From positions 1,268,501 through 1,332,500 of the forward strand of contig OY282361.1 of assembly GCA_958295645.1 (NCBI GenBank): a stretch of DNA of 64,000 bases, in the 5' to 3' direction. The stretch's first letter is position 1. Each line of letters starts with the position of its first letter. This document shows positions 9,052 through 51,777 of the stretch, piece after piece. The translations under genes and the position numbers were made by a program. Origin of the DNA: Longimicrobiales bacterium (GTDB lineage Bacteria > Gemmatimonadota > Gemmatimonadetes > Longimicrobiales > Gaopeijiaceae). The notes below the pieces were generated by a model. It saw only the letters and a list, made by a program, of their open reading frames with translations. It was not told the origin of the DNA and did not search any database.

Positions 9052-9870
9052 CTAGTCGTGCGGCGCCGCCCTGGGACGGGGAGACCGCGGCGCTCCCGCA
9101 AACGCGCGAGCCAGCCTGCGCACGACCCCGTCGTCGATCTGGTGGCCCCCTCGAAACGAGCGCCGCACCGGCGCAATGCCGGCCGCCGCAAGACGCCGGC
9201 CGTCCTGCTCCTCCTCCGTCGCGCTCGCCTCCGGATCCTGGTCTCCGAAGACGGTCGTGACGCCCACGCCCGCCAAGCGCGCGGCGATTCCCCGCTCCGG
9301 CGGCAGATGCGAGCCCCACAGCACCAGTTCGTCGACCGCCGTGCTCCCATGGGCGGCCCAGCGCGCCGCCGTGTGCCCGCCCTGCGAGAATCCCAGGGCC
9401 ACGACCTGCGGCCGTTTCGCTCCGCTCCCTCCGCCTGCCGCCTCCGGCGCCCGCCCGCGAACTCGCGGAGCCGCGCCGACCGCGCCAGCCCGCGCGCCCG
9501 CGCCAGCCAAGACTTGGCCCGCCAGAACCCGGCTGGCCAAGGCGTCCAGGTACGCCACGTAGTCGCGGATTTCGGCCTCGCGGTCCGAGCGCGTCATCCA
9601 GCTCGCACCGACGCGGGAGGCCGTGCCGTGCGCGCCCGGAGCCGGATCGACGTAGAACCGGCTGAGGGCCTCGGGCGCCACCACGACCGCTCCCTTCGCG
9701 CAGGCCGCCGCGAAACGCCGGACGAAGCGGCCGGCCAGCTGCCGGTACCCGTGGCAGACGAACCAGACCTGGGAGGTCTCCGCCGAGAGGGCGCCCAACT
9801 GGAAGAAGCGAGCCGTGCGCAGGACCTCGATTCGGCCCTCCGACACCGGCGGCGCGGCGCCAGCGCCCAT
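9052..9870 (-). CDS. Alpha/beta hydrolase, phospholipase/carboxylesterase type
   Basis: A 272-residue serine hydrolase. The nucleophile elbow is ALGFSQGGHTAARW, the acid is in TVFGDQDPEA, and the base histidine in FRGGHQIDDG, giving an ordered Ser-Asp-His triad. An early VWFVCHGYRQLAGRF strand-turn supplies the oxyanion region. A Gly/Ala/Arg-rich insert lies just before the nucleophile (residues about 122-150). Closest in style to the small phospholipase/carboxylesterase (YpfH/Lpl) group; the substrate is unknown. It begins 29 bases after the MATE transporter stop and is the last gene of that run. Confidence 0.82.
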   Translation of the reverse strand: MGAGAAPPVSEGRIEVLRTARFFQLGALSAETSQVWFVCHGYRQLAGRFVRRFAAACAKGAVVVAPEALSRFYVDPAPGAHGTASRVGASWMTRSDREAEIRDYVAYLDALASRVLAGQVLAGAGARAGAVGAAPRVRGRAPEAAGGGSGAKRPQVVALGFSQGGHTAARWAAHGSTAVDELVLWGSHLPPERGIAARLAGVGVTTVFGDQDPEASATEEEQDGRRLAAAGIAPVRRSFRGGHQIDDGVVRRLARAFAGAPRSPRPRAAPHD

Positions 9871-9899
9871 CTTCGCGCCCCCCGTCGCGCCCAGGCGCT

Positions 9900-11234
9900 T
9901 CACGACCGCGGGCGCGAAAGCGAAAACCGCTCCATCGGCCGCCGAAACCGCTTCCAGGTCCGGCCCAGCGAGAGCACGGCCGCGACCCCGAGGCCGACGG
10001 CCAACCCCACCCACAGCCCCACGGGTCCGATGCCCATCCTGAACCCGCACCACAGGCTGACCGGCATCCCCAACAACCAGAAGCCGAGGATGTTGTAGAG
10101 CAGCGGTCTCACCGTGTCCGCGACGCCGCGCAGGAGGCCCGCGCAAACGACCAGCAGTCCGTCGAACATCTGAAAGCAGGCCGCCACCGGCAACAGCGCC
10201 GCGGCCACGGCCACCACCCCGCCGGCGTCGCTGAACTGGGAGGCGATCGCGCCCGGGAACCCCGCGAACACGGCGGCCGTGACCGCCATGGCCACGCAGC
10301 AAACCAGCAACGACGACCCGGCAAAGCGCCGCGCCCGGGGCGGGTCCCCCTCTCCCACGGACTTGCCGACCAGCGCGGTCGCGGCCTGGGCGATTCCCAC
10401 GGGAACCATGAACGCGAAGGCGGCCAAGTTGAGCGCGACCTGGTGCCCGGCCATCGCCTCCGCCCCGAGCCACCCCATGAAGACGCCGATCGCACCGAAG
10501 GCGCCGAACTCCATCGCCATGTAGCCGCCGATGGGCGCGCCCAGCCGCAGCATGCCCGCCAGCGGACGCCAGGACACCGCCCCGCCCCGCCACCGGCGCA
10601 GCCGCTGCGCCAGCACGGCCCGTCCCAGCACGAGGACGCCCAAGCACATGAACCACCGGGAGATGCTGGTGGCCCACCCCGAGCCCACCGCACCCAACGC
10701 CGGCAGGCCCCAGTTGCCGAAGACCAGCAGCCAGTTGGCCAGAACGTTCAGCCCGTTGGCCGAGATCACCGTCCACACGATGGGCGCCACGCGCCCCAAG
10801 GCCTGCATGCTCTGCCGAAAGACCAGGAAGCCGTAGAACGGCAGCATCCCCGCAATCAGCGACCGCGCGTACGCGGCCGCCACGGGAACCACCTCCGGCG
10901 GCTGCCGCAGCGCAGTCAGCACGGGCCCGGCCAATGCGAGCAGCGCCGAGGCCACGACCGCGAGGCCCGCGCTCAAGACCAGCCCGCGCTGGACCGCGAG
11001 ATCGACGCCCTCGTCGTCGCCCGCGCCGAACGCCTGCGAGACCAGCGGATCCAGCCCCAGGAGGACGCCCATCCCGAACACCGCGACGCCGAAGAAGTAC
11101 AGGTTCCCCATGGCGACCGCGGCCAGGTGCTCGGCCGACACGCGGCCCACCATGGCGGTGTCCACCAGTCCCTGGGACACGATCCCCAACTGGACCACGA
11201 TCACGGGCAGGGCGAGCGCCAGCAGGCGGCGCAA
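9900..11234 (-). CDS. MATE family efflux transporter
   Basis: A 444-residue, twelve-helix multidrug/toxin extrusion protein of the NorM/DinF type, exporting cationic or planar compounds with Na+ or H+ exchange across the inner membrane. It opens LALALPVIVVQLGIVSQGLVDT and carries GLDPLVSQAFGAGD after helix 2 and MVPVGIAQAATALVGKSVGEGD in the second half, both standard repeats of the family. The only initiator consistent with the N-terminus is TTG at 11234; the next upstream in-frame codons are GTC/ATT-like. It follows the histidine kinase by 58 bases. Confidence 0.9.
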   Translation of the reverse strand: MRRLLALALPVIVVQLGIVSQGLVDTAMVGRVSAEHLAAVAMGNLYFFGVAVFGMGVLLGLDPLVSQAFGAGDDEGVDLAVQRGLVLSAGLAVVASALLALAGPVLTALRQPPEVVPVAAAYARSLIAGMLPFYGFLVFRQSMQALGRVAPIVWTVISANGLNVLANWLLVFGNWGLPALGAVGSGWATSISRWFMCLGVLVLGRAVLAQRLRRWRGGAVSWRPLAGMLRLGAPIGGYMAMEFGAFGAIGVFMGWLGAEAMAGHQVALNLAAFAFMVPVGIAQAATALVGKSVGEGDPPRARRFAGSSLLVCCVAMAVTAAVFAGFPGAIASQFSDAGGVVAVAAALLPVAACFQMFDGLLVVCAGLLRGVADTVRPLLYNILGFWLLGMPVSLWCGFRMGIGPVGLWVGLAVGLGVAAVLSLGRTWKRFRRPMERFSLSRPRS

Positions 11235-11292
11235 CTCGGTCCGGCCCGGAACGAAGGCCGCGAGCGTGGGCTGGCCGGGGGCGACGCCCCCG

Positions 11293-13581
11293 CTAATCGC
11301 TCTGTGCTTCCACGGAACCCGGCGTCAGGCCGGCGCGAGGCAGCGTGATCCGAAACTCCGTGAACTCGCCCTCTTCCGTCTCGACGTGGAGCTCGCCCCC
11401 GTGCTCCAGAATGATCTCGTGGGATATGGAGAGGCCGAGCCCGGTGCCCTGCGTACCCGTCTTGGTCGTGAAGAAGGGGTCGAAGATCTTCTCGACCAAG
11501 CTCGCGGGAATGCCCGTGCCGTTGTCGCGGATGGAAATCTGCACGGACTCGCCCAAGTCCTTGGTCGCGAGCCGCACGGCCGGAGCATAGCCGGGCTCCT
11601 CCGTCTCCTTGCGCCGCATGTCCGTCGCCTGGCAGGCGTTGGTGATGATGTTGAGAAACACGCGGCTCAGGTCGCGGGCGATTGCCGTCACCTCGCCGGC
11701 CGCCTCGTCGAACTCCCGCTGGATGGCCAGATTGAACGTCGAATCGGCCGCCCGAAGTCCGTGGTAGGCGAGCTTGCCGTACTCGTCGAGCATCAGGTTC
11801 ACGTCCACGCTCTCCGCGACTCCAGCCTCGTCGCGCGAGTGCGCCAGCATCCCCTCGACGATTCGATTCGCACGCACGCCGTGCTCCCGCACCTTCTGCA
11901 CGTTGAGCGTCAGGTCGCCCAGGACCTCGCCGAGGAATTCGCGGTCCGGACCGTCCGCGCCGTCCTCCCCGCCGTCCCCTTCGCCGCCTTCCGCCGCCTC
12001 GCCGGCCGCCGTCTGCTCGCCAGCGGCCTCTTGTCCGCCGTTGATCCCCAGCTCCTCGCGGATCTCGTCGATCAGCTCCACCGAGAGCGCGGCGAAGTTG
12101 TTGACGAAGTTCAGCGGATTGCGGATCTCGTGCGCGATTCCAGCGGTCAGCGTACCGAGCGAGGCCAGCTTCTCCTGGCTGATCACCTGCTGCTGCGTCC
12201 GCTTGAGGTCCTCCAGCGTCGTCTCGAGCTCCGCGTTCTTCTCCTGCACCTCCGCATGCAGCTTCTCCACCAAGTTGAGGCGCTGAACCTCGACGGCATG
12301 CTGGCGAAAGACTTCAAGCGCCCCCGCCATGTCCGTCACTTCGTCGTTGCCGGCGATCTTGACCTCGACCTCCAGGTCCCCCTTGGACATCTCCCGCATG
12401 GCCTCCGACAAGTGGCGCACGCGGGCCAGCAACCGCTCGCCGAAGAACTTCCAGCCGATCGCGAAGGCGGCGACCAACGCGAGGACGCTCACGCCCAGCA
12501 CCAGCCATGTGCCGAGCGCCGTGAGCGCGCTCGAATCGTCGGCGGCCGTGCGCGCCTGCAACGAGGTCTCGTCGACCAGCTCCTTCACCATGACGCCGAG
12601 TTCCGCCGCCGTGCGCGTGTTGCGCGCCACGAACTCCTCGGACTGGTCGAGCTCGTCCAGCTCGAGGCCCCGCGTCTCGAACACTTCGTCGTAGAGCGTG
12701 CGAACACGCGCCACCGACGGCCTCAGGCTGTCGGCAACCGCCGGACGCATGGCTCCCAGCGCCTGCTCCACCCGCGTGAACTCCGTGTTGACGCGCTCCT
12801 GGTTGGAGGCCAGCAGGTCGCGGTCGTCCTCGGCGATCGCCTGGAAGGTGAGCGTCCGAATGGCGCTCTGCGAAGCGCGGAAGCCGAGAAGCCCGCGGTG
12901 GTGGTCGAGTTCGGCCTGCGCGGTCCTCAGGAAGGCGGGCACGGGTCGTTCGTCGTCCAGATTCCGCAGTCCGGTGTCGATGAAGAACTCCTGGTCGTCG
13001 AGCTCCTGAACCAAGAAGCGCTCCGCGTTCGGTCCCACCCGTCCCAGCTCGACCTCGAGTTCGTTCAGGCGGTTGCGATACTCGATGCGGTTCTTCACCA
13101 GAACGAGAATCTGGTTGATGTTCTCGACCAAGCTGCTGGACAGCGGCACCACTGACATCCCTGCCGGTCCCGTGACCTCCGCGAGCGTGATATCCGAAAT
13201 CGCGGCCTGCAGCAGGCGCTCTTCGCGCTCCACGTCGCGCTGCACGGCGTCGAGTTCCTCTTGGGTGACCGCGGCGAGCAGGCGGGGCGAGGCGCCGACG
13301 AGTTCCGAACTCGTGCGTTCGACCTCGAAGGCGGCCACGAGCGCGGGGATGTGGCGGTCGGTGATTTCGCCTTGCCGCGCGTTCAGGTAGGCCATGATCC
13401 CAAGGGCCAGCAGGCTGCCGCCGAGCGTGAGAAAGACGCCCCCGCCGAGTCCCACGGCAACTTGGCTGCCGATCCCGAAGCGCCCTCCGGTAGCCTTCTC
13501 GACGCGCCGCTTCAGGCCGCCCGGCAGATTCCGCAACGTCCACTCGAAGGCCGAGTGGACGCGGGTCTCCAGGGTCTTCAC
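11293..13581 (-). CDS. Sensor histidine kinase with periplasmic helical sensor and HAMP
   Basis: A 762-residue membrane kinase. Transmembrane segments at about 40-66 and 358-378 enclose a roughly 290-residue, mainly helical extracytoplasmic domain. Then come HAMP (380-430), a coiled coil, the dimerisation helix with phospho-acceptor H484 in GIAHEIRNPLNFVNN, and an ATPase domain with N648, DNGTGIP (686-692) and GTGLGLS (712-718). The two helices of the dimerisation hairpin are separated by a long acidic Gly/Ala insert (about 513-548). It starts with GTG overlapping the binding-protein stop (GTGA), so the two proteins should be made together; the receiver/PP2C protein two genes upstream is the likely partner. 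Confidence 0.92.
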   Translation of the reverse strand: MKTLETRVHSAFEWTLRNLPGGLKRRVEKATGGRFGIGSQVAVGLGGGVFLTLGGSLLALGIMAYLNARQGEITDRHIPALVAAFEVERTSSELVGASPRLLAAVTQEELDAVQRDVEREERLLQAAISDITLAEVTGPAGMSVVPLSSSLVENINQILVLVKNRIEYRNRLNELEVELGRVGPNAERFLVQELDDQEFFIDTGLRNLDDERPVPAFLRTAQAELDHHRGLLGFRASQSAIRTLTFQAIAEDDRDLLASNQERVNTEFTRVEQALGAMRPAVADSLRPSVARVRTLYDEVFETRGLELDELDQSEEFVARNTRTAAELGVMVKELVDETSLQARTAADDSSALTALGTWLVLGVSVLALVAAFAIGWKFFGERLLARVRHLSEAMREMSKGDLEVEVKIAGNDEVTDMAGALEVFRQHAVEVQRLNLVEKLHAEVQEKNAELETTLEDLKRTQQQVISQEKLASLGTLTAGIAHEIRNPLNFVNNFAALSVELIDEIREELGINGGQEAAGEQTAAGEAAEGGEGDGGEDGADGPDREFLGEVLGDLTLNVQKVREHGVRANRIVEGMLAHSRDEAGVAESVDVNLMLDEYGKLAYHGLRAADSTFNLAIQREFDEAAGEVTAIARDLSRVFLNIITNACQATDMRRKETEEPGYAPAVRLATKDLGESVQISIRDNGTGIPASLVEKIFDPFFTTKTGTQGTGLGLSISHEIILEHGGELHVETEEGEFTEFRITLPRAGLTPGSVEAQSD

Positions 13582-30614: not shown

Positions 30615-31129
30615 GCGGGTTCCGTGCCTCCAGCTTGGCGAATGCGATCCGCCAGCGCGGTGGAAGAGTGGCCGGGCACCAACGGCACGGTCGCCACGAC
30701 GCCGCCGCGCCTCTCGACGATCGGGCCGCCCGCCATCGCCTTCGCGTCGTAGTCTCCTCCCTTGACGAGAACGTCGGGCTGCAACGCGGCGATCAGGGAC
30801 TCCGGCGTGTCCTCGTCGAACAAGGTCACGCAGTCCACGGACTCCAACGCGGCGACGACGGCGGCGCGAGCCTCTTCTCCCACGAAGGGGCGTCCCCTGC
30901 CCTTTCCGAGACGGCGGGCCGAGGCGTCGGTGTTGACGCCGACCACCAGCGCGTCGCCCATGCGGCGGGCCCTGTCCAGGTACTCCACGTGGCCAGCGTG
31001 CAGGAGGTCGAAGCATCCGTTGGTGAACACCAGGCGGAACGAACGCCCGGGACCGAAACGCGCTTCAGCTTCGCCGCGGGAAAGCGTCTTGGCGGCCGGA
31101 CTGCGCGGGCCTGCCGGAGCGCCGGCCAC
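30611..31129 (-). CDS. rfaE2: D-glycero-beta-D-manno-heptose 1-phosphate adenylyltransferase
   Basis: A 172-residue cytidylyltransferase-fold enzyme that makes ADP-heptose for the LPS core. It has the HxGH motif in VFTNGCFDLLHAGHVEYLD, VGVNTDASARRLGKG with GRPFVGEEARAAVVAAL, VLVKGGDYD and the nucleotide loop PGHSSTALADRI. It corresponds to the C-terminal half of E. coli HldE; the kinase half is a separate gene at 61766-62797. It starts ten bases after the last antiporter subunit and overlaps rdgB. Confidence 0.93.
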   Translation of the reverse strand: MAGAPAGPRSPAAKTLSRGEAEARFGPGRSFRLVFTNGCFDLLHAGHVEYLDRARRMGDALVVGVNTDASARRLGKGRGRPFVGEEARAAVVAALESVDCVTLFDEDTPESLIAALQPDVLVKGGDYDAKAMAGGPIVERRGGVVATVPLVPGHSSTALADRIRQAGGTEPA

Positions 31130-31138
31130 CGCGAGCCG

Positions 31139-32842
31139 TCAGAGGAACTGAAAGAGGAGAAAGGCCGCCAACATGATCGCGACCCAAAGGACCATGCTTC
31201 CGGCGGGCCAGCTTCGGGCCAGCGGGCCGTGAGGGCCATGCGCGCGGAAGGCGCCTTCGTACATCGGCCGCGCCACCCCGGCCGCCGCGGAGCGCAGTGC
31301 GACGCCGGCCTGCGCCACGGCGTCGCCCGTGCGGCGCACGAGGCGAGCTCCAGCGCGCCGGTAGAACCAGTCCGCGTCCAAGTTGACCGCCCGAATCTCG
31401 GCCGGATAGATCTTGAGCAGCTGGAACACGACGATCGCGCCGATCGCAAACGCGAGCAACTGAATCTGCGTCAGCACGTGGCTCGCGTCGTAGGGGTGGT
31501 AGTCCACCGCGTACGGGAGCAGGCCGTAGAGGAGCCCCGGCCGGACTCCGATGGCCACGCAGGCTATGGCGGCTACGGTCATGGCGGCCAGCATGTTGCG
31601 CGGGGGCTCGCGCGTGCGGATGCCCGAGTCCTGCGCGAAGAACGCGAAGAAGGGGATCTTGATGCCCGCGTGTTCGACGACTCCGGCCGACGCGAAGAGC
31701 ATGACGGGCCATATCCACATGTAGCCCCCGTCGATCAGGGCCGACATGATCATCGACTTGGAGACGAAGCCGTTGAACAAGGGCACGGCTGAAATCGACG
31801 CGGCTCCGATCATGCAAAGGACGGCCGTGAACGGCATGGTCTTGTAGAGTCCGCCCAGGTCGGAGGCCTTCGTCTTTCCGGTCATGTGCATGACGGCGCC
31901 CATGGACATGAACAGCAGTCCCTTGAAGAGGACGTCGTTGAAGGCGTGGGCGACCGCCCCGTTGATGGCCAGCGCGCTCCCCACTCCAATGCCGCAGACC
32001 ATGAAGCCGATCTGGTTGATCATGGAATACGCGAGCGTGCGCCGCAGATCGTTCTCGATGACCGCGTAGAAGATCGGGAAGCAGGCCATGGCCGCCCCGG
32101 CGTAGACGAGGATCTCGGTCTCGGGGAACCCGCGGGCCAGCGCGTAGACCGCCACCTTGGTCGTGAACGCGCTCAGGAAGACGGTGCCGGTCGGCGTTCC
32201 CTCGGGATAGGCGTCGATCAGCCAGCTGTGCAGCAACGGGAACGCCGCCTTCACGCCGATGGCCAGGAAGATCAGCCAACCCGACAGGCCGTCCAGGCCG
32301 ACGAAGCCGAAGGACAGGGTGCCGGTCTCGTGCACGCGCATCAGCGCCCCGGCCAAGAGCGCCACGCCGGACACGACCTGGACGACCAGGTACCTCATGC
32401 CGGCCCGGGCCGATCCGGGCCCGCGGCGCGACCAGATCAGGAACGCCGAACTGACCGCCAGCAGCTCCCAGAACACGAACAGCGAAATGAAGTCGCCCGC
32501 GAAGACGGCCCCGAGGGCGCTTCCAGCGTAAACCAGCGCCGCGACGTGCTGGACCGTGGCGTTCTCGGCCTTCTTGAGATGCAGCGAATAGACGACCGCG
32601 ATGAACGCCGCCAAGTGGAACAGATAGCCGAACAAGAGGCTCAGCCGGTCCGCCCGAACCGGTTCCAGCACGTAGCCCAGGAACTCCAGCTGCCATGCGT
32701 AGCCTTCTTCGACGCCCCACACGTTCAGCGCGCCGGCCACGGGCACGAGGACGAGGAGAACCTTGCGAACCGTCCCCCGCGTCACGGCCGCGAGCAACGC
32801 CCCGACAAAGAAGACCAGGAACGGAGGCAGGCTACTCGTCAT
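31139..32842 (-). CDS. mrpD: Mrp-type cation/proton antiporter subunit D, third copy
   Basis: A 567-residue membrane subunit related to MrpD and NuoN/NuoM. The key charged helices are FVFWELLAVSSAFLIW (Glu), GVKAAFPLLHSWLIDAYP (Lys and His) and AFTTKVAVYALARG, and the discontinuous helix region LAYSMINQIGFMVCG follows. It is longer than the other two D-type subunits because of a C-terminal extension (about residues 440-567) that ends in a further transmembrane helix after a cytoplasmic, Ala/Arg-rich stretch. It is the last antiporter gene, overlapping the small membrane protein by 11 bases. Confidence 0.92.
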   Translation of the reverse strand: MTSSLPPFLVFFVGALLAAVTRGTVRKVLLVLVPVAGALNVWGVEEGYAWQLEFLGYVLEPVRADRLSLLFGYLFHLAAFIAVVYSLHLKKAENATVQHVAALVYAGSALGAVFAGDFISLFVFWELLAVSSAFLIWSRRGPGSARAGMRYLVVQVVSGVALLAGALMRVHETGTLSFGFVGLDGLSGWLIFLAIGVKAAFPLLHSWLIDAYPEGTPTGTVFLSAFTTKVAVYALARGFPETEILVYAGAAMACFPIFYAVIENDLRRTLAYSMINQIGFMVCGIGVGSALAINGAVAHAFNDVLFKGLLFMSMGAVMHMTGKTKASDLGGLYKTMPFTAVLCMIGAASISAVPLFNGFVSKSMIMSALIDGGYMWIWPVMLFASAGVVEHAGIKIPFFAFFAQDSGIRTREPPRNMLAAMTVAAIACVAIGVRPGLLYGLLPYAVDYHPYDASHVLTQIQLLAFAIGAIVVFQLLKIYPAEIRAVNLDADWFYRRAGARLVRRTGDAVAQAGVALRSAAAGVARPMYEGAFRAHGPHGPLARSWPAGSMVLWVAIMLAAFLLFQFL

Positions 32843-33134
32843 CGTAGTAGTCCTCCGGCCGCATCACGAGCCGCCGCAACGCCTTCGAGACCAGGATCAG
32901 ACCGGAAATGCCCAGAAAACCGTACAGCGCATGGAAGAGCGGCACCTCTTCCCACGGATGCTCGCCGTGGATGTCGGCGAGGAAGCCGGCGACGACCGCC
33001 GCAACGCAAAGCCCGAGGAAGCCGAGCAGTATCCGCTTGGACCACCGGGGGGGCACGCTGTTCGGGCCGTGTTGGGCCGGGGGCCTGCCCGCTTCGGGCG
33101 GCTGGAGGGAATCCGGGGAGCGCTTCTCGTTCAT
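32832..33134 (-). CDS. Small two-helix membrane protein of the antiporter operon
   Basis: A 100-residue protein with a polar, Pro-rich first 28 residues, two transmembrane helices (about 33-53 and 68-85) with the loop HGEHPWEEVPLFHALYG between them, and the basic/acidic tail RRLVMRPEDYYDDE. I recognise similar unassigned small proteins between MrpD-like genes in other Mrp/Mbh-type operons, but no function is known. It overlaps the D2 stop by one base and the D3 start by 11 bases, so it is surely translated with them. The HxxxxWE loop facing the periplasm could be structural. Confidence 0.8.
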   Translation of the reverse strand: MNEKRSPDSLQPPEAGRPPAQHGPNSVPPRWSKRILLGFLGLCVAAVVAGFLADIHGEHPWEEVPLFHALYGFLGISGLILVSKALRRLVMRPEDYYDDE

Positions 33135-34606
33135 CACTGTCCCACCACCGCCGCCATCAGCCTGTAGACGGGTTCGGGATAGACGAACAGCGCGACGCAG
33201 GCCACCGCGGTCGCGACGATTGCGACCAGCGAGCAGACCGGCGCCTCTCGAACTTGCGTGGGCGGCTGGGCCGTGGACGCGGCGCCGAAGAATCCCTTCA
33301 GAGGGACCTCCATCAGATAGGCGAGCGACATGAGCGAGCTCAGCATCAGCACCACCAGCAACCCGGCCTGATCCGCTTCGAGCGCGCCCAGCCCCAGGAA
33401 CCACTTGCTCCAGGAACCGCCGGCGGGCGGCAGCCCGGCGATGCAAAGCGCGCCCAGGACGAAGGCGAAGAAGGTGACCGGCATCGCGCGGCCCAGTCCG
33501 TTCAGCTGGCTCACCTTGGTCTTGTGGGCGGCCACCATGATGGCGCCCGCGCAGAAGAACAGAGTGATCTTGCCGAAGGCGTGCATGACGATGTGCATGC
33601 CGCCGCCGACGATCCCCCAGCTGTTGGCCAGCATCGCGCCCAAGACGATGTAGGAGAGCTGACCCACGGTGGAATACGCGAGGCGGGCCTTCAGGTTGTC
33701 CTTGCGCAACGCCACGAACGAGGCCAGCAGGATCGTGGCGGCGGCGGCCCACATCAACCACACCGAGGCGTTCGTGGCCCTCACGAAGTCCAGGCCGAAC
33801 ACGTAGACGGTGATCTTCAGGACCGCGAACACGCCTGCCTTCACCACGGCGACGGCGTGCAGCAAGGCGCTGACCGGCGTGGGCGCCACCATGGCCGCGG
33901 GCAGCCAGCGATGGAAGGGCATGACGGCGGCCTTGCCGATCCCGAACACGAAGAGCGCCAGCAGAAGGGGGACGGCGGCCGTGTTGGTCCAGCGTCCCTC
34001 GAGGATGCCGCCGGGACGAAAGTCCAGCGTGCCGGCGACCGAGTACGTCCAGGCGATGGCCAACAGCTGGAACACGATCGACGTCGAGAAGAGAACGCCC
34101 AGGTAGATGCGGCCCGCGCGCTTGGCCGCCTCCGAGCCCGCGTGAGCCACCAGCGGAAACGTGGTCAGCGACAGCACTTCGTAGAAGACGAAGAGCGTGA
34201 ACAAGTTGCCCGCGAAGGCCACCCCGATGGCCGAGGCGATCGCGTAGGCGAAGAACACGTAGAAGCGGGTTTGGTTGCGTTCTCCGTGGCCGCGCATGTA
34301 CCCGATAGCGTACAGCGTCGTCACGATCCACAAGAAGGACGCGACGAGGGCGAACACCACTCCCAAGGGCTCCGCCGCCAACGACAGCGTGATGCCGGGA
34401 ATCGGCTCGGCGAGCACGACGGCCTCCCCGCCTGGGGCGCCGCTGCTCACCGTGCGGTAGATGCCGCACACGATCAAGAACAGCAGGGTCGCGGAGACCA
34501 GGCTCGCCGCCTCCCGGGCGTTCGGACGCGACCGCAGCAACAGGACGAACACGGTGCCGACCACGGGGACCAGCAGCGCCAGGACCAGCATGGCGGCCGG
34601 CGTCAC
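33134..34606 (-). CDS. mrpD: Mrp-type antiporter subunit D, second copy
   Basis: A 490-residue D-type subunit. Ion-translocation markers are LFVFYEVLSLTTFPLVAH (Glu), GIGKAAVMPFHRWLPAAMV (Lys, His) and ALLHAVAVVKAGVFAVLK, with ARLAYSTVGQLSYIVLGAML and GGMHIVMHAFGKITLFFCAG in the second half. The family is proton-translocating, using a central lysine/glutamate chain. It overlaps the D1 gene by four bases. Closest in feel to the Mbh/NuoL-like paralogue. Confidence 0.93.
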   Translation of the reverse strand: MTPAAMLVLALLVPVVGTVFVLLLRSRPNAREAASLVSATLLFLIVCGIYRTVSSGAPGGEAVVLAEPIPGITLSLAAEPLGVVFALVASFLWIVTTLYAIGYMRGHGERNQTRFYVFFAYAIASAIGVAFAGNLFTLFVFYEVLSLTTFPLVAHAGSEAAKRAGRIYLGVLFSTSIVFQLLAIAWTYSVAGTLDFRPGGILEGRWTNTAAVPLLLALFVFGIGKAAVMPFHRWLPAAMVAPTPVSALLHAVAVVKAGVFAVLKITVYVFGLDFVRATNASVWLMWAAAATILLASFVALRKDNLKARLAYSTVGQLSYIVLGAMLANSWGIVGGGMHIVMHAFGKITLFFCAGAIMVAAHKTKVSQLNGLGRAMPVTFFAFVLGALCIAGLPPAGGSWSKWFLGLGALEADQAGLLVVLMLSSLMSLAYLMEVPLKGFFGAASTAQPPTQVREAPVCSLVAIVATAVACVALFVYPEPVYRLMAAVVGQ

Positions 34607-36078
34607 GGGGCTGCTCCCATGAGGATTTCAGCGGCCCTCTCGGCCACCCCGACGGTGCGCGTCGCGTCGATCCCGAAGTAGACGTTGAGGACGACCAGCG
34701 CCCATGTCGGGACCAGCAGCGCGGCGGGCGCCTCGCGGGTCTCTCGGTCGCCCGGGAACTCGCGGAAGTAGGCGGCCTCGATCACGCGCCAGACGTAAGC
34801 GAGCGCCATCACCGACGTGATCAGGACGATCACCGCGAGCGGCCACCAACCCCGCTCCAGCGCAGCCAGGATCAGGTACCACTTGCTGACGAATCCGACG
34901 GTGAGGGGGACGCCCACCAAGCTGAGCCCCCCCACCACGAAAGCGGCCATCGTGGCCGGCATGCGCTTGCCCAGCCCAGCCATCGCGTCGATGTGCACCG
35001 AACCGATCCGGTAGGCGACGCATCCCAGCGCCATGAACAGCGCGCCCTTCATCAGCGCGTGGTTGAACAGGTGCAGGACGGCGGCGGTCAGCCCCGTGAC
35101 CGAGGCGAACGAGATTCCCAGGATCATGTAGCCGATCTGCGCCACGGAGGAGTACGCCAGCAGGCGCTTCACGTTGGTCTGCAGGATGGCCACGAACGAC
35201 ATGCTGAATATGGCGGCCACGGCGAGCGGCATCAGAACCATGTCGAGGTTCATCACGTCGAAGGAGAAGGCCGCGCCGAAGATCGTGAAGAAGAAGCGCA
35301 ACAACATGTAGACGGCGACCTTGGTGGCGGTCGCGGCCATGAACGCGGTGACGGCGGAGGGCGCGAACGTGTAGGCGTTCGGGAGCCACAAGTGCAACGG
35401 GAACAGGGCCAGCTTCAGGAAGCAGCCCACGGCGAGGAACCCGTAGGCGACCTTGATCGTGCGGACGTGCCAGACGCCGGGCAGACGGTCGGCCAAGTCC
35501 GCCATGTTGAGCGTGCCGGTCGTCGCGTACATCAGGCCAATGCCGATGACGATGAAGGTGGCGCCCACCGATCCCATGATCAGGTAGCGGAAGGCGGCGG
35601 CCAGCGCCCGGCGGTCCTGCCCCAGCGCGATCAGCGCATAGGCCGACAGCGACGATATCTCCAAGAACACGAAGACGTTGAAGACGTCGCCGGTGGCGGC
35701 GATGCCGAGAAGACCCGACAGGCACAGCAGATAGGCCGCGTAGAACAGCGCGACCCGGCTCGCCTCCACTTCGCGCTCGACGCTGGCTCGGGCGAAGAAC
35801 ACGACGGCGGTGGAGACCAGCGACACGATGACGAGAATCCACGCGTTGACGGCGTCGATCCGGTACTCGATCCCCCATGGAGGAGCCCAGTCCCCGACGT
35901 CGTAGGAGAGCGGCCCCGATGCCAGGACGGTGGAGACGATGTCGAGCGCGATGCCGAAGGCGCACAGGCTGCCGAGAGCCGCCAGCGCCCAGGCCGCGCG
36001 GGGGTGGCGCACCAACACGCAGAGCGGGGCCAGGACGAGCGGGATCACGACCTGCAGGACGGGAAGGTGCTGGGTCAC
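34603..36078 (-). CDS. mrpD: Mrp-type antiporter subunit D, first copy
   Basis: A 491-residue D-type subunit with VFVFLEISSLSAYALIALG (Glu), FLKLALFPLHLWLPNAY (Lys and His), FMAATATKVAVYMLLRF and RLLAYSSVAQIGYMILG. I use GTG 36078, which leaves 13 bases after MrpC; the frame is open to 36111 but that extension is RRRTRDQ and would overlap mrpC. Together with the two following D-type subunits it gives three proton-channel modules in one complex, against one A plus one D in classical Mrp. Confidence 0.94.
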   Translation of the reverse strand: MTQHLPVLQVVIPLVLAPLCVLVRHPRAAWALAALGSLCAFGIALDIVSTVLASGPLSYDVGDWAPPWGIEYRIDAVNAWILVIVSLVSTAVVFFARASVEREVEASRVALFYAAYLLCLSGLLGIAATGDVFNVFVFLEISSLSAYALIALGQDRRALAAAFRYLIMGSVGATFIVIGIGLMYATTGTLNMADLADRLPGVWHVRTIKVAYGFLAVGCFLKLALFPLHLWLPNAYTFAPSAVTAFMAATATKVAVYMLLRFFFTIFGAAFSFDVMNLDMVLMPLAVAAIFSMSFVAILQTNVKRLLAYSSVAQIGYMILGISFASVTGLTAAVLHLFNHALMKGALFMALGCVAYRIGSVHIDAMAGLGKRMPATMAAFVVGGLSLVGVPLTVGFVSKWYLILAALERGWWPLAVIVLITSVMALAYVWRVIEAAYFREFPGDRETREAPAALLVPTWALVVLNVYFGIDATRTVGVAERAAEILMGAAP

Positions 36079-36091
36079 GGGTTCGCCCTGG

Positions 36092-36499
36092 TCACGAGTC
36101 CGCCTCCGCATCGAGCGCGTTGATCTCGTCTTCCTCCACGGTGCCGTACGCCTCCTTGATCCTGACCGCCAGCGCCAGCCCGACCGAGGTCGTGGCCACG
36201 CCCACGACGATGGCGGTGAGGATGAGGACGTGCGGGAGCGGGTTCGAGTAGAGGACCCCTGGAACCGGTTCGCCGTGGCTTCCCAGGATGGGCGCGGTGC
36301 CCCCGGTGATCTTCCCCATGGTGATGTACATCAGGAACACCGAGGTCTGAAAGACGTTCAGCCCCACCAGCTTCTTGATCAGGTTGCCGCGCGAGATGAG
36401 CACGTAGAACCCGGTCATCATCAGGACGATGACGATCCAGTAGTTGTAGTTGGCGACGACGTGGCCGATCCACGGGAAAGCGCTCTGCGCCCAGCTCAT
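36092..36499 (-). CDS. mrpC: Mrp-type antiporter subunit C
   Basis: A 135-residue, three-helix NuoK-like subunit. Helices at about 15-35, 45-65 and 88-110; the segment KLVGLNVFQTSVFLMYITMG followed by SNPLPHVLILTAIVVGVATTSVGLAL is typical of MnhC/MrpC, including the PLPHVLILTAIVVG motif. It overlaps the upstream MnhB-type gene by ATGA. Confidence 0.94.
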   Translation of the reverse strand: MSWAQSAFPWIGHVVANYNYWIVIVLMMTGFYVLISRGNLIKKLVGLNVFQTSVFLMYITMGKITGGTAPILGSHGEPVPGVLYSNPLPHVLILTAIVVGVATTSVGLALAVRIKEAYGTVEEDEINALDAEADS

Positions 36500-36921
36500 G
36501 ATTTCCGCCTGCCCCGGTCGGCGAATACGTAGAAGGCGGTCGTCATCACCCCGAAGACGGTGATCACGACGCCGGCCTCCACGAGAAGGATGCCGAGGTG
36601 CTGGCCCTTCTCGGGGTCGGAGGCCAATGCGTCGTATCCCAGGAAGTTGGCCCCGAGCGCCATGGCGGCGAAGCCCACGCCCGCATACACGAGCACGCCC
36701 AGGGCCGCGCAGGACCGCACGAACCAGAGCGGCAACGCGCGCTGCACCGCGTCCAGCCCGAAGACGAGAGACAGCATCACGAAGGCGGCCGCGAGGATCA
36801 CGCCCGCCTGAAACCCGCCGCCCGGGCTGTAGTCCCCGTGAAAGTGGACGTACAGGCCGAACACGAGGATGAACGGAGCCATCATCTTGGCGGCCAGGCG
36901 GAGGACGAGTTCCTCTCTCAC
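36496..36921 (-). CDS. mrpB: Mrp-type antiporter subunit B (MnhB domain)
   Basis: A 141-residue membrane protein with four helices. It carries the MnhB hallmark APFILVFGLYVHFHGDYSPG followed by GGFQAGVILAAAFV, and a C-terminal VEAGVVITVFGVMTTAFYVF. Its ATG overlaps the DUF4040 gene stop by four bases and its stop overlaps mrpC by four bases. Confidence 0.93.
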   Translation of the reverse strand: MREELVLRLAAKMMAPFILVFGLYVHFHGDYSPGGGFQAGVILAAAFVMLSLVFGLDAVQRALPLWFVRSCAALGVLVYAGVGFAAMALGANFLGYDALASDPEKGQHLGILLVEAGVVITVFGVMTTAFYVFADRGRRKS

Positions 36922-42349: not shown

Positions 42350-42446
42350 TGGCGGGAGCGTGTGGGAATCGAACCCACCCGCCCGGGTTTTAGCCAGGCG
42401 CACTGGTTTTGAAGACCAGACGGAACACCAGTTCCGATCCGCCCCC
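42350..42446 (-). tRNA. selC: tRNA-Sec (anticodon TCA)
   Basis: A 97-nt tRNA on the minus strand, 42446 to 42350. The anticodon arm CTGGT-CTTCAAA-ACCAG reads TCA. Features specific to selenocysteine tRNA are all there: long acceptor (GGGGGCG pairing with CGCTCCC, eighth pair mismatched), a D arm with a stem GGAAC/GTTCC closed by a four-base TGGT loop, a long variable arm of seven pairs (CGCCTGG with CCGGGCG), T arm GTGGG-TTCGATT-CCCAC, discriminator G, and an encoded CCA. No selA, selB, selD or selenoprotein gene was seen in the window. Confidence 0.95.
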
Positions 42447-47658: not shown

Positions 47659-47694
47659 CCGCGTAGAGCCGCCCGCCGCCGAAGAGCGCCGCCG

Positions 47695-49455
47695 ATGCTG
47701 ACCAAGCTGACCATCCGCAACTTCAAGCAGTTCGACGACGTCGAAATCGAACTGGGCAGTCCGGTCGTCTTCGTGGGGCCAAACAACTCGGGCAAGACGA
47801 CCGCCCTGCAGGCCCTGTCTCTGTGGAGCACGGGACTCCGGTTGTGGAACGCCAAGCGCTCCGGCAAGACGGCTCCGGCCAAGCGCCCCGGCGTCACAGT
47901 CAACCGGCGCGACTTGGTGTCGGTTCCGGTGCCCGGAGCGAAGCTGCTTTGGCGCGAACTGCACGTCCGAGAACAGCGGCGCGTCAACGGCCGGCAGGGC
48001 ACGTCGAACGTTCGCGTCGAGATCGTCGTCGAAGGCGCGACGAACGAGGGCGAATGGCGATGCGGCCTCGAGTTCGACTACGCCAACGAAGAGTCCTTCT
48101 ATTGCCGGCCGCTCCGCCTGGGCGACGGCAATGCCTCCAGCCGCATGGAGGTTCCTCCGGCAGCCGGCGAGGTCCGAATCGCATACCTGCCCCCGATGTC
48201 GGGCTTGGCCGCGACGGAACCCCGCTTGGATCCGGGCGCCGTCGACGTCCGCATCGGCGAGGGCCGCACGGCCGAGGTGCTCCGCAACCTTTGCCACCGC
48301 GTGCACGAGGACGACGAGCATCCGGGGCGGTGGGACAAACTCGCCAAGCACATGAGGAGCTTGTTCGGCGTGCAGGTCGACCCGCCGAAGTACAATCCGG
48401 CGCTGGGCGAGATCACGATGACCTACAGCGAGCACGGCGTGCCGCTCGATCTGTCCGCGTCCGGGAGAGGCTTGCAACAGACGTTGCTTCTGCTCGCCTA
48501 CATGTACTCGAATCCAGGCGCGGTTCTGTTGCTCGACGAGCCCGACGCGCACATGGAAATCCTCCGCCAGCGCCAGACCTACGGCCTGCTCACCAACACT
48601 GCAAACGAGACCGGCAGCCAAATCGTCGCCGCGACCCACTCCGAGGTCGTGCTCAACGAAGCCGCCGGACGCGACCTGGTGGTGGCCTTCGTCGGCTCTC
48701 CCCACGTCGTCGGGGGCAGGCGCAGCCAAGTGGCCAAGGCGCTCAAGGAGATCGGATGGGAAGACTACTATCAGGCGAAGCAAACGGGTTGGGTACTCTA
48801 CGTCGAGGGCTCCACGGACTTGGCGATCCTGCGGACGTTCGCCGGACGCCTGCAACACGACGAAGCCAGGAATGCGCTTGAACGCCCCTTCGTGCACTAC
48901 GTGGGAAACCAACCCGGAGTGGCCAAGAGACATTTCCATGGTCTCCGGGAGGCCGTTATCGGGCTACGGGGCGTCGCTCTGTTCGACCAGCTCGACAACC
49001 GTCCCGACATCCACCCCATCAAGTGCTTGATGTGGGACCGCCGCGAGATCGAGAACTATCTGTGCTCGCGGGAAACTCTCCAAGCGTTCGCCCAGGCCGA
49101 GGCTGGCCAGGACGCGCTGCACCCTCTCTCGTCCGCAAGCGAAACCAAACAGACCGAACGCCGGCTACGCGCCATGCGCACGGCCATTAGCGACATGGAG
49201 ACCGCGCTCAAGACGCTGGGCAAGGGCTCCCCGTGGAGCGCCGACATCAAAGCCAGCGACGACTTCCTGATCCCGTTGTTCCAGGCTTACCACGAGAAGC
49301 TGGCTCTGCCCAACCTCATGGCCAAGAGGAACTTCCATGTGCTGGCGGCCCATGTCCCCGAGCAAGAGATCGCGCCGGAAGTCCGGCAGAAGCTCGACGC
49401 CATCGCCCGCGTTGCCGCAGGGGCCTACTCGAGCACCCCCAGCATCTCGTCGTGA
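47695..49455 (+). CDS. OLD-like ATPase with TOPRIM/DUF4435-type C-terminal domain
   Basis: A 586-residue ABC/AAA-class ATPase. It has Walker A GPNNSGKTT (28-36), an ABC signature LSASGRGLQQT (253-263), Walker B AVLLLDEPDAHME (276-288) and the histidine switch ATHS (313-316). The C-terminal half opens with YVEGSTDLAIL (369-379), then ALFDQLDN (428-435) and WDRREIENYL (447-456), the acidic pattern of TOPRIM-type nuclease domains in OLD proteins or the related DUF4435. Such proteins act in phage defence, for example GajA. Its end overlaps the converging mcrC gene by 31 bases. A GAGCGCC stretch precedes the ATG; the site is weak. Confidence 0.82.
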   Translation: MLTKLTIRNFKQFDDVEIELGSPVVFVGPNNSGKTTALQALSLWSTGLRLWNAKRSGKTAPAKRPGVTVNRRDLVSVPVPGAKLLWRELHVREQRRVNGRQGTSNVRVEIVVEGATNEGEWRCGLEFDYANEESFYCRPLRLGDGNASSRMEVPPAAGEVRIAYLPPMSGLAATEPRLDPGAVDVRIGEGRTAEVLRNLCHRVHEDDEHPGRWDKLAKHMRSLFGVQVDPPKYNPALGEITMTYSEHGVPLDLSASGRGLQQTLLLLAYMYSNPGAVLLLDEPDAHMEILRQRQTYGLLTNTANETGSQIVAATHSEVVLNEAAGRDLVVAFVGSPHVVGGRRSQVAKALKEIGWEDYYQAKQTGWVLYVEGSTDLAILRTFAGRLQHDEARNALERPFVHYVGNQPGVAKRHFHGLREAVIGLRGVALFDQLDNRPDIHPIKCLMWDRREIENYLCSRETLQAFAQAEAGQDALHPLSSASETKQTERRLRAMRTAISDMETALKTLGKGSPWSADIKASDDFLIPLFQAYHEKLALPNLMAKRNFHVLAAHVPEQEIAPEVRQKLDAIARVAAGAYSSTPSISS

Positions 49456-50534
49456 ATGCCCCGCCAGTCTTCCTGGTTCAGGTCGACGGTGCGGGCCTGG
49501 ATGCGGAAGCCTTCCAACCGAACGTCGATCCGTAGGGGCTCGTCTCCCTGCGGGTACAGCAAGATCCCCTCGTGCTGGGGGCCAGGCGGCACCGTCGCCT
49601 CGCGGTTGCGGACGTAGGACAGAAGCTGGTAGAGGTTGCCGGAGCGAAGCTTGCCTGCCCCGTGGCGCCCGCCCAAGGCCTCCGCATAGTACTTGGTGTC
49701 CAGCACGATGCGCCGGGCTCTGGATTCCAAGATCAAGTCGGCTTCCATCACGGGTATTCTCGCCTCGTCGGCTTCCGTGGCGGCCCATCTCTCCGACCAC
49801 TTGATCCGGCGACCGCCCCGGTTGACCTCGAAGCTCCTCTGCTCCTTGCGAAAAAACCCCGTCGCGAACGCCTCGAACAACCGCCACATCCTCGCTTCGT
49901 CCCGACGGAAGTCGTGGAACGCAACTCGGTCTCTTTGCCGTTCTCCGACGAGCTGGCATTCGAGGATCAGGCGACACACGTCCAGAAGAAAGCGGTACAG
50001 GCGGCGGTTCTGATCGATCTGGACCAGCCCGAAGCTCCGGCGTCTCAAGGGCACGACCGAGACGCCCGCAAGTCGGTGATAGGCCGAGAGCACTTCCGCG
50101 TGAACATCGGCGGCCAAGCCCGCGTCGCCGAGAGATGTCTCCACGCCGCCGTCCGTGCGCGATCCCTCCTCCGCCACGCCCAGCCTCCGAAGCGAGTCCA
50201 GCGACGAGCGCAAGATGCGGTTCAAGAGGATGTCCGGAGACAACTCTTCGAATTCGCAGGCGGCTCGGCTGCGCGCTCGAAGCGCGCGCTTGGCAGTGTC
50301 GCCCACAACAAGCTTGCCGCGAATGCCGGCCAAGTCGTCGCGCCGCTCCACGTAACCCCGGTCGATTCCCCGGCGGAGCAACCGATTCGTGCCGCTCGCC
50401 AACACCTTGCCCAGCAGATCCTGCACCGACGAAAGCTCTCCGGCCGTCGACAGCGCCTTCGCGTCCCGTTCCTGGGCGTGGTCCCAAGCGTAGCAAAGCA
50501 GATAATAGACGTTGAAGACCGGAACCTGCTTCAA
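49425..50534 (-). CDS. mcrC: McrC-like restriction endonuclease subunit
   Basis: A 369-residue member of the McrC family (COG4268). The N-terminal DUF2357-like part (VFNVYYLLCYAWDHAQ, LLRRGIDRGYVERRDDLAGIRGK) is followed by a PD-(D/E)xK nuclease domain with D266 in PVMEADLILE and D279-T-K281 in IVLDTKYYAEA, then a helix YQLLSYVRNRE. It supplies the cutting activity for the McrB GTPase. The start is TTG, overlapping the mcrB stop by TTGA. Its 3' end overlaps the converging OLD-like gene. Confidence 0.88.
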   Translation of the reverse strand: MKQVPVFNVYYLLCYAWDHAQERDAKALSTAGELSSVQDLLGKVLASGTNRLLRRGIDRGYVERRDDLAGIRGKLVVGDTAKRALRARSRAACEFEELSPDILLNRILRSSLDSLRRLGVAEEGSRTDGGVETSLGDAGLAADVHAEVLSAYHRLAGVSVVPLRRRSFGLVQIDQNRRLYRFLLDVCRLILECQLVGERQRDRVAFHDFRRDEARMWRLFEAFATGFFRKEQRSFEVNRGGRRIKWSERWAATEADEARIPVMEADLILESRARRIVLDTKYYAEALGGRHGAGKLRSGNLYQLLSYVRNREATVPPGPQHEGILLYPQGDEPLRIDVRLEGFRIQARTVDLNQEDWRGIHDEMLGVLE

Positions 50535-51772
50535 GGCGCACGCAGAGCCTTCGCCGCGTTGTCGGCATTTTCGCCCGCGTCGAACCAATACTCGCGCAAC
50601 ATCGGCACGATCTGCGTCCTCACGATGTCCTCGTACCAGTTGTCGGGCACGGGCCCGCCCTCTGCCGGGACGAAGTAGCTGTGTCCGATCTCGAATCCTG
50701 GGCCGAGATCCGAGTCCTCGCGGATCTCCCGGTTGAGCCTCTCCATGCGCCTCTGAATGGTCTGCACGAGGTCCGTGTCGACTCCGCATTTTCTCAAGTA
50801 CGCCCGGAACTGGGCAGTCCCGAAAGCAGGCGACAGACGCTCGAAGGCGAACCTGCGACGCAAGGCGTAGTCCACCACGGCCAGAGAACGGTCGGCGGTG
50901 TTCATCAACCCGAGTATGTGCACGTTCGGCGGCACGAAGAAGCTGTCGCCGGGCTTGCCGTACGTCAGCGACACGGCGTACTCCTCGCTCCGCTTGTCCG
51001 ACTCGACCAACATCAGAAGTTCTCCGAAGATTCTGGACAGATTGCCCCTGTTGATCTCGTCTATGATGAGGACGTGAGGCGTCTCAGGTGCGTCTCGGGC
51101 GCGTTTGCAGAACTCGAAGAAGACGCCGTTTCTAAGTGTGAAGCCGCCACGTGCGGTGGGCCGGTACCCCTGCACGAAGTCCTCGTATGCGTAGGACTGG
51201 TGAAACTGCACCATTTCGATAGGCTTCGAGTCGCGGGTCTCGATCAAGCACCAAGCAAGACGTCGCGCCATGAACGTCTTGCCTGTGCCCGGTGGGCCCT
51301 GGAGAATCAAGTTCTTGCGAGACCGGAGCGCGTCAAGCATCCTTTCGAGGCGCGCCGGTGAGATAAAAAGATCCTCCAATGCATCGGCAGGACCATAGTG
51401 TCGCGACGAAACAGGAGAGGGCTCCGAAGAACTCCGCCTATACGCTCTTTTGGTTCTTTTGTACTTGTCGAGCACTTCTTGCTCTTCATCCACGTCCAGC
51501 CCGGATTCCGTCACCGCCCACAGGCATCGGCCTACGTTCTCGACAAGACCTGCTTGCTTCAGGTTGCTACGCGCCCAGCTCGCATCGTAAGCGAACCTGG
51601 ACTCCTTTCGGTTCGGGGCCACGATGCGGAGCACGGCATCGGACAACCCCAAATCGCTCGCAACTTGGCGTTCGATCTCGTCGTTGCTCATCGACCGCCC
51701 GGAAGCCTGGAGTATCCGTAGCGTCGGCCAGAGGAGTCCCCGGCGCCGCGGAACCGCCTGTTCCGCCCCCAC
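50531..51772 (-). CDS. mcrB: McrB-like AAA+ GTPase with Mrr_N winged-helix domain
   Basis: About 413 residues. Residues 8-100 match the Mrr N-terminal winged-helix domain (LLWPTLRILQASGRSMSNDE, then FAYDASWARSNLKQAGLVEN), in place of the DUF3578 or other readers of classical McrB. The AAA+ module has Walker A LQGPPGTGKTF (157-167), the SYAYEDFVQGYRP block, Walker B LIIDEINRGNLSRIFGELL and the McrB-specific MNTADRSLAVVDYALRRRF (290-308). The start is uncertain: GTG 51772, six bases after the VPS10 gene stop, fits the domain but its AAGGAG is too close. The 5' part (about 51360-51720) is clearly less GC-rich than the neighbourhood. Confidence 0.85.
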   Translation of the reverse strand: MGAEQAVPRRRGLLWPTLRILQASGRSMSNDEIERQVASDLGLSDAVLRIVAPNRKESRFAYDASWARSNLKQAGLVENVGRCLWAVTESGLDVDEEQEVLDKYKRTKRAYRRSSSEPSPVSSRHYGPADALEDLFISPARLERMLDALRSRKNLILQGPPGTGKTFMARRLAWCLIETRDSKPIEMVQFHQSYAYEDFVQGYRPTARGGFTLRNGVFFEFCKRARDAPETPHVLIIDEINRGNLSRIFGELLMLVESDKRSEEYAVSLTYGKPGDSFFVPPNVHILGLMNTADRSLAVVDYALRRRFAFERLSPAFGTAQFRAYLRKCGVDTDLVQTIQRRMERLNREIREDSDLGPGFEIGHSYFVPAEGGPVPDNWYEDIVRTQIVPMLREYWFDAGENADNAAKALRAP

Positions 51773-51777
51773 CTCCT

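Follow-up and report, generated by a model that had tools for sequence, protein, structure and literature searches.

An Mrr_N-McrBC operon and a convergent OLD-like ABC-ATPase/Toprim gene as probably independent defence modules at one inserted site of a Longimicrobiales genome

Several described systems contain an OLD-type ABC-ATPase together with a Toprim domain. For instance, the class 1 OLD proteins P2 Old and T. scotoductus OLD are encoded by single genes and carry an N-terminal ABC-ATPase and a C-terminal Toprim domain. In T. scotoductus OLD, residues E377, D431 and D433 coordinate metal A, whereas D381, S478 and E480 coordinate metal B; the second Asp of the DxD motif belongs to the set reported as conserved in every class 1 homologue (PMC7049728). 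PARIS pairs the ABC-ATPase AriA with the Toprim protein AriB and, once activated by an anti-restriction protein, cleaves tRNA. One protein to which PARIS reacts is Ocr, and single-gene PARIS fusions are known (PMC9122126). Moreover, a study that does not mention McrBC in its main text (0 occurrences) describes Toprim-linked OLD-ABC proteins as back-up effectors that BREX and BREX-related systems have recruited (PMC12839542). For McrBC itself, a census lists Mrr_N among the domains or aliases used for finding McrB homologues and among the domains fused to McrB (PMC11090510). Pairs of an NTD-wH-NTPase and McrC are also mentioned in another study, in which the purification of one was unsuccessful (PMC11037411). 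Here, we describe a stretch of 64,000 nucleotides from an uncultured Longimicrobiales bacterium (contig OY282361.1; hereafter the window), in which a gene for an OLD-like ABC-ATPase with a Toprim-like domain (hereafter the ATPase) faces an McrB-McrC operon. The three genes probably constitute two independent defence modules at one inserted site.

The window stems from a single-contig genome of 2.89 Mb, designated G000; WIN denotes the window locus, and G and L numbers denote genomes and loci, respectively. The inserted patch and its parts occupy the following window positions:

47659-51777, no strand: inserted patch between an aldehyde dehydrogenase (ALDH) gene, which ends at 47658, and a VPS10/sortilin-like gene, which ends at 51778
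47695-49455, plus strand: open reading frame (ORF) of the ATPase, ATG start, 586 amino acids (aa), OLD-like ABC-ATPase/Toprim in one chain
47695-48705, plus strand: ABC-ATPase domain (aa 1-337) with Walker A GPNNSGKTT, Walker B LLLDEPDAH and H-loop THS
48721-49452, plus strand: Toprim-like domain (aa 343-586) with E371, D375, D431, E451, E453, K519 and K544; the DxD motif reads D431-Q-L-D434
49425-49455, no strand: tail-to-tail overlap of the ATPase and McrC frames, 31 bp
50534-49425, minus strand: McrC, TTG start, 369 aa
49737-49739 (D) and 49692-49700 (DTK), minus strand: PD-(D/E)xK motif of McrC, residues kept
51772-50531, minus strand: McrB, GTG start, 413 aa, Mrr_N plus McrB-type AAA
50849-51313, minus strand: AAA core of McrB with GPPGTGKT, LIIDEINRG and MNTADRS; AAA_5, E 2.6e-26
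51485-51736, minus strand: Mrr_N domain (McrB aa 13-96), which replaces the N-terminal reader of E. coli McrB; PF14338, E 1.1e-18

The McrB stop and the McrC start share four bases (TTGA), and the two genes form an operon. Judged from the sequences, the patch looks like a predicted modified-DNA-cutting system next to an unrelated one-gene predicted defence nuclease. A preliminary description of this stretch had already proposed that the ATPase converges on McrC with a 31-base overlap, that McrB has an Mrr_N reader, that the ATPase carries TOPRIM-like motifs and that both modules belong to classes known from phage defence or type IV restriction. The reading frames bear out the overlap, the PF14338 match identifies the reader, and domain, profile and fold matches agree with the classes. 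The Toprim part is invisible to Pfam, which returned 0 families for aa 343-586, and is backed by the predicted fold.

The window operon resembles E. coli McrBC in its two-gene organisation, its AAA core and the PD-(D/E)xK motif of McrC, whereas the reader is Mrr_N and not the N-terminal domain of E. coli McrB. McrB aa 90-399 align to E. coli McrB (6ut6) with 313 bits (E 1.6e-92), and the Walker A, Walker B and MNTAD-type motifs are present in the core (GPPGTGKT, LIIDEINRGNLS and GLMNTADRSLAVVDYALRRRF in the E. coli McrB alignment). McrC matches PF10117 (E 4e-23) and E. coli McrC (6hz4_M; 159 bits, E 1.7e-45), with the D...DAK residues aligned, and a PADLOC search with McrC gave 0 families at 0.1. 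Mrr_N was also detected in the McrB of G160 (E 3.2e-17); it was not found at E 0.01 in six other McrB-like proteins that were scanned, one of them from G000. Because Mrr_N occurs in the McrB census and NTD-wH-NTPase/McrC pairs have been mentioned before, the window McrBC can be assigned by its sequence to a known kind, the Mrr_N-McrB subtype of type IV restriction. By analogy, McrB hexamers would read a presumably modified base via Mrr_N, move along the DNA with GTP and deliver the McrC PD-(D/E)xK nuclease to the invading modified DNA, which would then be cut.

Two further observations concern McrBC-like genes elsewhere. A second divergent McrB/McrC-like pair lies about 50 kb from the island (G000 C1:1369621-1372211; L063:9594-12328), with 38% identity in McrB. 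The McrB of G160 (L035:2953-4218) lacks 13 residues (FHQSYAYEDFVQG), which are present in the window protein and nearly so in E. coli McrB, and may be inactive.

Sequence searches placed the ATPase among the OLD/AriA/GajA/PtuA-like ATPases and yielded no full-length family. The Pfam matches are AAA_21 (E 2e-18) and AAA_15 (E 1e-17), and a profile search with the Toprim part against sequences of the Protein Data Bank gave 0 matches at E 10. A full-length AlphaFold model built from 52 sequences reached a mean predicted local distance difference test (pLDDT) score of 85.4. The fold search with this model mainly covered aa 1-337, and the C-terminal domain was therefore folded alone (pLDDT 95.1). 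The N-terminal part (aa 1-337) matches PtuA-type chains (Z about 18, root-mean-square deviation (rmsd) 3.6-4.6, about 276 aligned residues) as well as SMC/Rad50-like heads, including AriA (Z 16.6). The best match of aa 343-586 is AriB of PARIS (8ux9_A; Z 10.3, rmsd 5.0, 196 aligned residues), and the rest of the top five consists of AriB (8v46_D, Z 9.2), the OLD C-terminal domain (6njw, Z 8.1; 6nk8_A, Z 8.0) and the retron Eco8 effector (Z 8.0). The Foldseek E-values for this part are weak (best 4.4e-3). The models place the ATPase among the OLD-ABC proteins and predict a C-terminal Toprim domain.

Compared with the described systems, the ATPase shares with PARIS the combination of OLD-ABC and Toprim, the C-terminus matching AriB best and the N-terminal part matching AriA. 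AAA_15 and AAA_21, which are also expected of PARIS, are present. The ATPase differs in having no DUF4435 (PF14491) match at E 0.01 and in its altered DxD motif; furthermore, the PADLOC AriAB model covers only aa 276-458. With class 1 OLD proteins, the ATPase has in common the single gene, the predicted folds of the N-terminal ABC-ATPase and the C-terminal Toprim domain, the absence of an adjoining UvrD/PcrA/Rep helicase, and a Glu and an Asp four residues apart together with the first Asp of the DxD motif. However, the sequence similarity to T. scotoductus OLD is weak (6p74, E 1.8e-8), and the catalytic set is incomplete, as the second Asp of the DxD motif is replaced by Leu. The ATPase also has the ABC-ATPase plus Toprim architecture of the class 2 OLD protein GajA and gives partial profile matches to it. 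A Gabija system was rejected, since the neighbours of the ATPase are ALDH and McrC and no GajB helicase adjoins it. Finally, a resemblance to the BREX-related back-up effectors is that Hma/DUF1156-type genes adjoin homologues of the ATPase in L171, L152 and L147 and that the homologue in L130 belongs to a BREX locus, whereas no BREX genes accompany the window ATPase.

In the preliminary description, the OLD-like gene and Mrr_N-McrBC had been regarded as a possible composite system. In such a system, the ATPase could, for instance, guard McrBC and kill the cell when a phage blocks restriction. Relatives of the ATPase were collected by a scan of genome contigs, in which at least 592 stretches matched and at least 430 encoded relatives; the best 80 were kept as loci, at least three of which (L100, L117, L122) duplicate loci from the phylum, and genes in the loci were called by a simple script instead of a standard gene finder. 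McrB or McrC was found near the ATPase in 0 of these 80 multi-phylum loci (E 1e-6), in 2 of the 27 loci fetched from the phylum besides the window (E 1e-4; G192 and G160) and in 0 of 20 viral-contig loci from IMG/VR. Many loci stop at contig ends, and absence of McrBC thus refers to the recovered DNA. Within the bacterium's own family, the ATPase is present in 12 of 121 genomes (E 1e-100), McrC in 28 (E 1e-15) and both in 8, and McrC is more frequent in genomes with the ATPase (8/12) than in those without it (20/109; Fisher p=0.0009). However, in the sister genera g2 and g5, whose 34 genomes we take to be completely covered, 9 genomes carry the ATPase, 24 McrC and 6 both, and the respective frequencies of McrC are 6/9 and 18/25 (Fisher p=1). 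The family-wide excess is a lineage effect, because co-occurrence in g2 and g5 is at chance. Thus, when the three-gene arrangement was sought in other genomes, the OLD-like gene and McrBC were mostly found apart. Moreover, they are convergent in the window and not arranged as an operon.

The cooperation of both modules is favoured by their presence in one inserted patch and by G160, which carries both at the same ALDH/VPS10 site in the same orientation, its McrB also having Mrr_N; two unrelated genes lie there between the ATPase and McrBC. The trees place WIN as the sister of G160 for McrB (99/96), McrC (100/99) and, more weakly, the ATPase (87, unstarred). A third convergent pair occurs in G192, where McrBC belongs to a different clade (36% McrC identity) and lies at another site, and members of the ATPase family are embedded in other restriction operons. 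Since WIN and G160 are sisters in the trees and occupy the same site, shared ancestry with joint vertical inheritance of both patches is possible. It is weakened by the ATPase identity between WIN and G160 (65%), which lies below that of the flanks (68-84%) and is no higher than at some other loci (66% for L096), and by an McrC fragment. This 3' remnant lies in G000 about 370 kb from the window (C1:945814-946035; L062:9781-10083), directly before a gene for an 864-aa membrane-protein-like product (YfhO-like by eye). The remnant, over 81 aa, and the 864-aa protein are each about 78% identical to G160 McrC and the product of the gene next to it, whereas the window and G160 McrC proteins share 66%. 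A G160-type McrBC array was thus, as the sequences suggest, once present in G000, and G160 McrC is nearer to its decayed copy than to the window protein. Having examined loci, genome co-occurrence, trees and synteny, we rejected the composite system as the principal explanation and consider it quite improbable. As the pairing does not stand, follow-up work on a false partnership can be spared.

The remnant could also indicate that the whole patch is decaying and that its genes are functionless leftovers; a split ATPase gene in G187 and the 13 residues missing from G160 McrB point in the same direction. However, all three window genes are full length, and the motifs of McrB, McrC and the ATPase are intact, which makes decay of the window patch very improbable indeed. 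The preferred explanation is that of two independent modules.

That the patch is an insertion at one chromosomal site is evident from relatives. The upstream flank is the ALDH gene and the downstream flank the gene for a sortilin/VPS10-like protein, in agreement with the earlier view that the island sits between metabolic and secreted-protein genes. Nine regions were fetched for the comparison of flanks, three of which had both flanks, while the rest stopped short or lacked a VPS10-like gene next to ALDH. In these three, the gap between the ALDH and VPS10-like genes is 115 bp (G069), 814 bp (G303) and 549 bp (G397), and it contains neither the ATPase nor McrBC. At the same site, G160 has an 862-aa gene, the ATPase, two genes (323 and 850 aa), McrC and McrB. 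Because G160 carries more cargo there, the site looks like a defence hotspot. A gene upstream of the patch near ALDH is presumably DeoC-like.

All three genes deviate from their surroundings in composition, McrB most strongly. Its guanine-cytosine (GC) content (0.607) and its GC content at third codon positions (GC3; 0.758, z -3.5) are the lowest of 55 window ORFs, and its codon usage is the most deviant of the 28 long ones; in GC3, McrC ranks third lowest and the ATPase fifth lowest. The patch looks foreign in GC, GC3 and codon usage, which is consistent with transfer. The preliminary description was right in calling McrB GC-poor; its restriction of this feature to the 5' part does not hold, as the first 400 bp have a GC content of 0.610 and the remainder of 0.606.

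The ATPase was found in 19 of 395 genomes of the phylum, and the best 80 of the at least 430 relatives are 52-66% identical and, going by their record titles, represent at least a dozen phyla. No tblastn match was obtained in 72,556 plasmid records (E 1e-20) or in 50,697 phage records (E 1e-10), while IMG/VR yielded 20 relatives, two of them 55-59% identical. Carriage by plasmids or phages was accordingly discarded as an explanation, the IMG/VR relatives being the only viral matches and none of them lying near McrBC. A Res-type helicase and a type III-like methyltransferase lie beside, flank or occur within three genes of the ATPase in L109, L112, L125, L140, L154 and L158, in several of which these genes overlap or lie a few bases apart. 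The three genes are also found together in L058, and across several phyla the ATPase looks like a third component of such loci. In L171, the ATPase is flanked by HmaA and HmaB, which it overlaps by 7 and 4 bases, in L152 it precedes HmaB, in L147 it adjoins a DUF499/HmaC-like gene on the opposite strand, and in L130 it precedes PglX. In total, 17 of 91 loci, including the window and G192, have a gene of the restriction query set within two genes of the ATPase. The family is thus patchy, spans many phyla and is recurrently placed in other restriction operons (type III-like, Hma and BREX).

Because of this placement, the BREX back-up effectors and the response of PARIS to Ocr, the lone ATPase may best be read as a PARIS-like back-up effector. 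Its ABC part would most likely sense a signal of infection, which by the precedent of PARIS could be a phage anti-restriction protein. The Toprim part would then cut host or phage nucleic acid and stop the infected cell. Either module would presumably protect against phage.

Several points weigh against a defence effector. The restriction queries for the 91 loci were picked from the neighbours themselves, so 17/91 is not an unbiased rate, and the other 74 loci have no gene of the query set within two genes. Members of the family thus mostly stand by themselves between other genes, and this would also be compatible with a function outside defence. A conserved upstream neighbour was found in 11 loci, directly adjacent in 10, nearly all of them from Poribacteria. 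In a less biased comparison with PADLOC (E 1e-20), 122 families were matched among 98 ATPase-adjacent proteins and 35 among 100 proteins at a distance of five or six genes, although these are counts of families only (after removal of 12 near-duplicate loci, the sets comprised 98 of the 122 adjacent and 100 of the 152 distant proteins). Moreover, residue 433, the second Asp of the DxD motif, is Leu in the window protein and Leu or Ile in 63 and 17 of 90 near relatives, respectively, while the 13 far relatives have Asp (7) or Asn (6) at this position. Because Asp is replaced in the window protein, the nuclease activity of its Toprim domain is not certain.

On these grounds, the ATPase could be an OLD-like protein with a regulatory or housekeeping function and a weakened or lost nuclease, as the loss of the second Asp in 80/90 near relatives and the conserved neighbour in Poribacteria would suggest. 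A clade with 36-38% identity (L047-L052) also keeps one gene order in sister genomes (MoxR/DUF58/VWA-type by eye), in some cases with 4-bp overlaps with the upstream gene, and an archaeal OLD-class ATPase is reported to have a role in the cell cycle (PMC12796447). However, a dead domain would not need E371, D431 and E453, which are invariant in the 90 near relatives, nor D375 (88/90) and E451 (89/90). The spacing of E371 and D375 is that of T. scotoductus OLD, D431 corresponds to the first Asp of the DxD motif, and E451/E453 and K519/K544 presumably belong to the active site. In addition, an acidic residue is present one place further on in 69/90 (Asp434 in 55, Glu434 in 14). Together with the patchy cross-phylum distribution and the placement inside restriction-modification operons, this makes a non-defence role of the ATPase unlikely, and we keep the PARIS-like effector as the better description.

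As a useful by-product, this work points to a widespread ABC-Toprim family whose Toprim site is altered and whose members recur in several restriction operons. More tentatively, the ATPase might represent a multi-phylum family in which OLD-ABC and Toprim share one chain, the metal site is rewired to D-x-[L/I]-[D/E] and no named model exists in the libraries searched. Its members would plug into several kinds of restriction operon, namely type III-like ones (helicase-ATPase-methyltransferase), Hma, BREX and, in the window, McrBC, and would serve them all as a guard, killing the cell once restriction is blocked; this broader proposal is doubtful. If a PARIS-like guard function were true, the idea of a back-up effector would no longer be confined to BREX but would include type III-like and perhaps type IV restriction.

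Two minor features lie elsewhere in the window. ARAGORN predicts a tRNA-SeC gene with the anticodon tca on the minus strand (42350-42446), which suggests the use of selenocysteine in this lineage. Moreover, the composition profile displays a strong AT skew (about 0.2 to 0.44) at 9500-11500 and 31000-36500.

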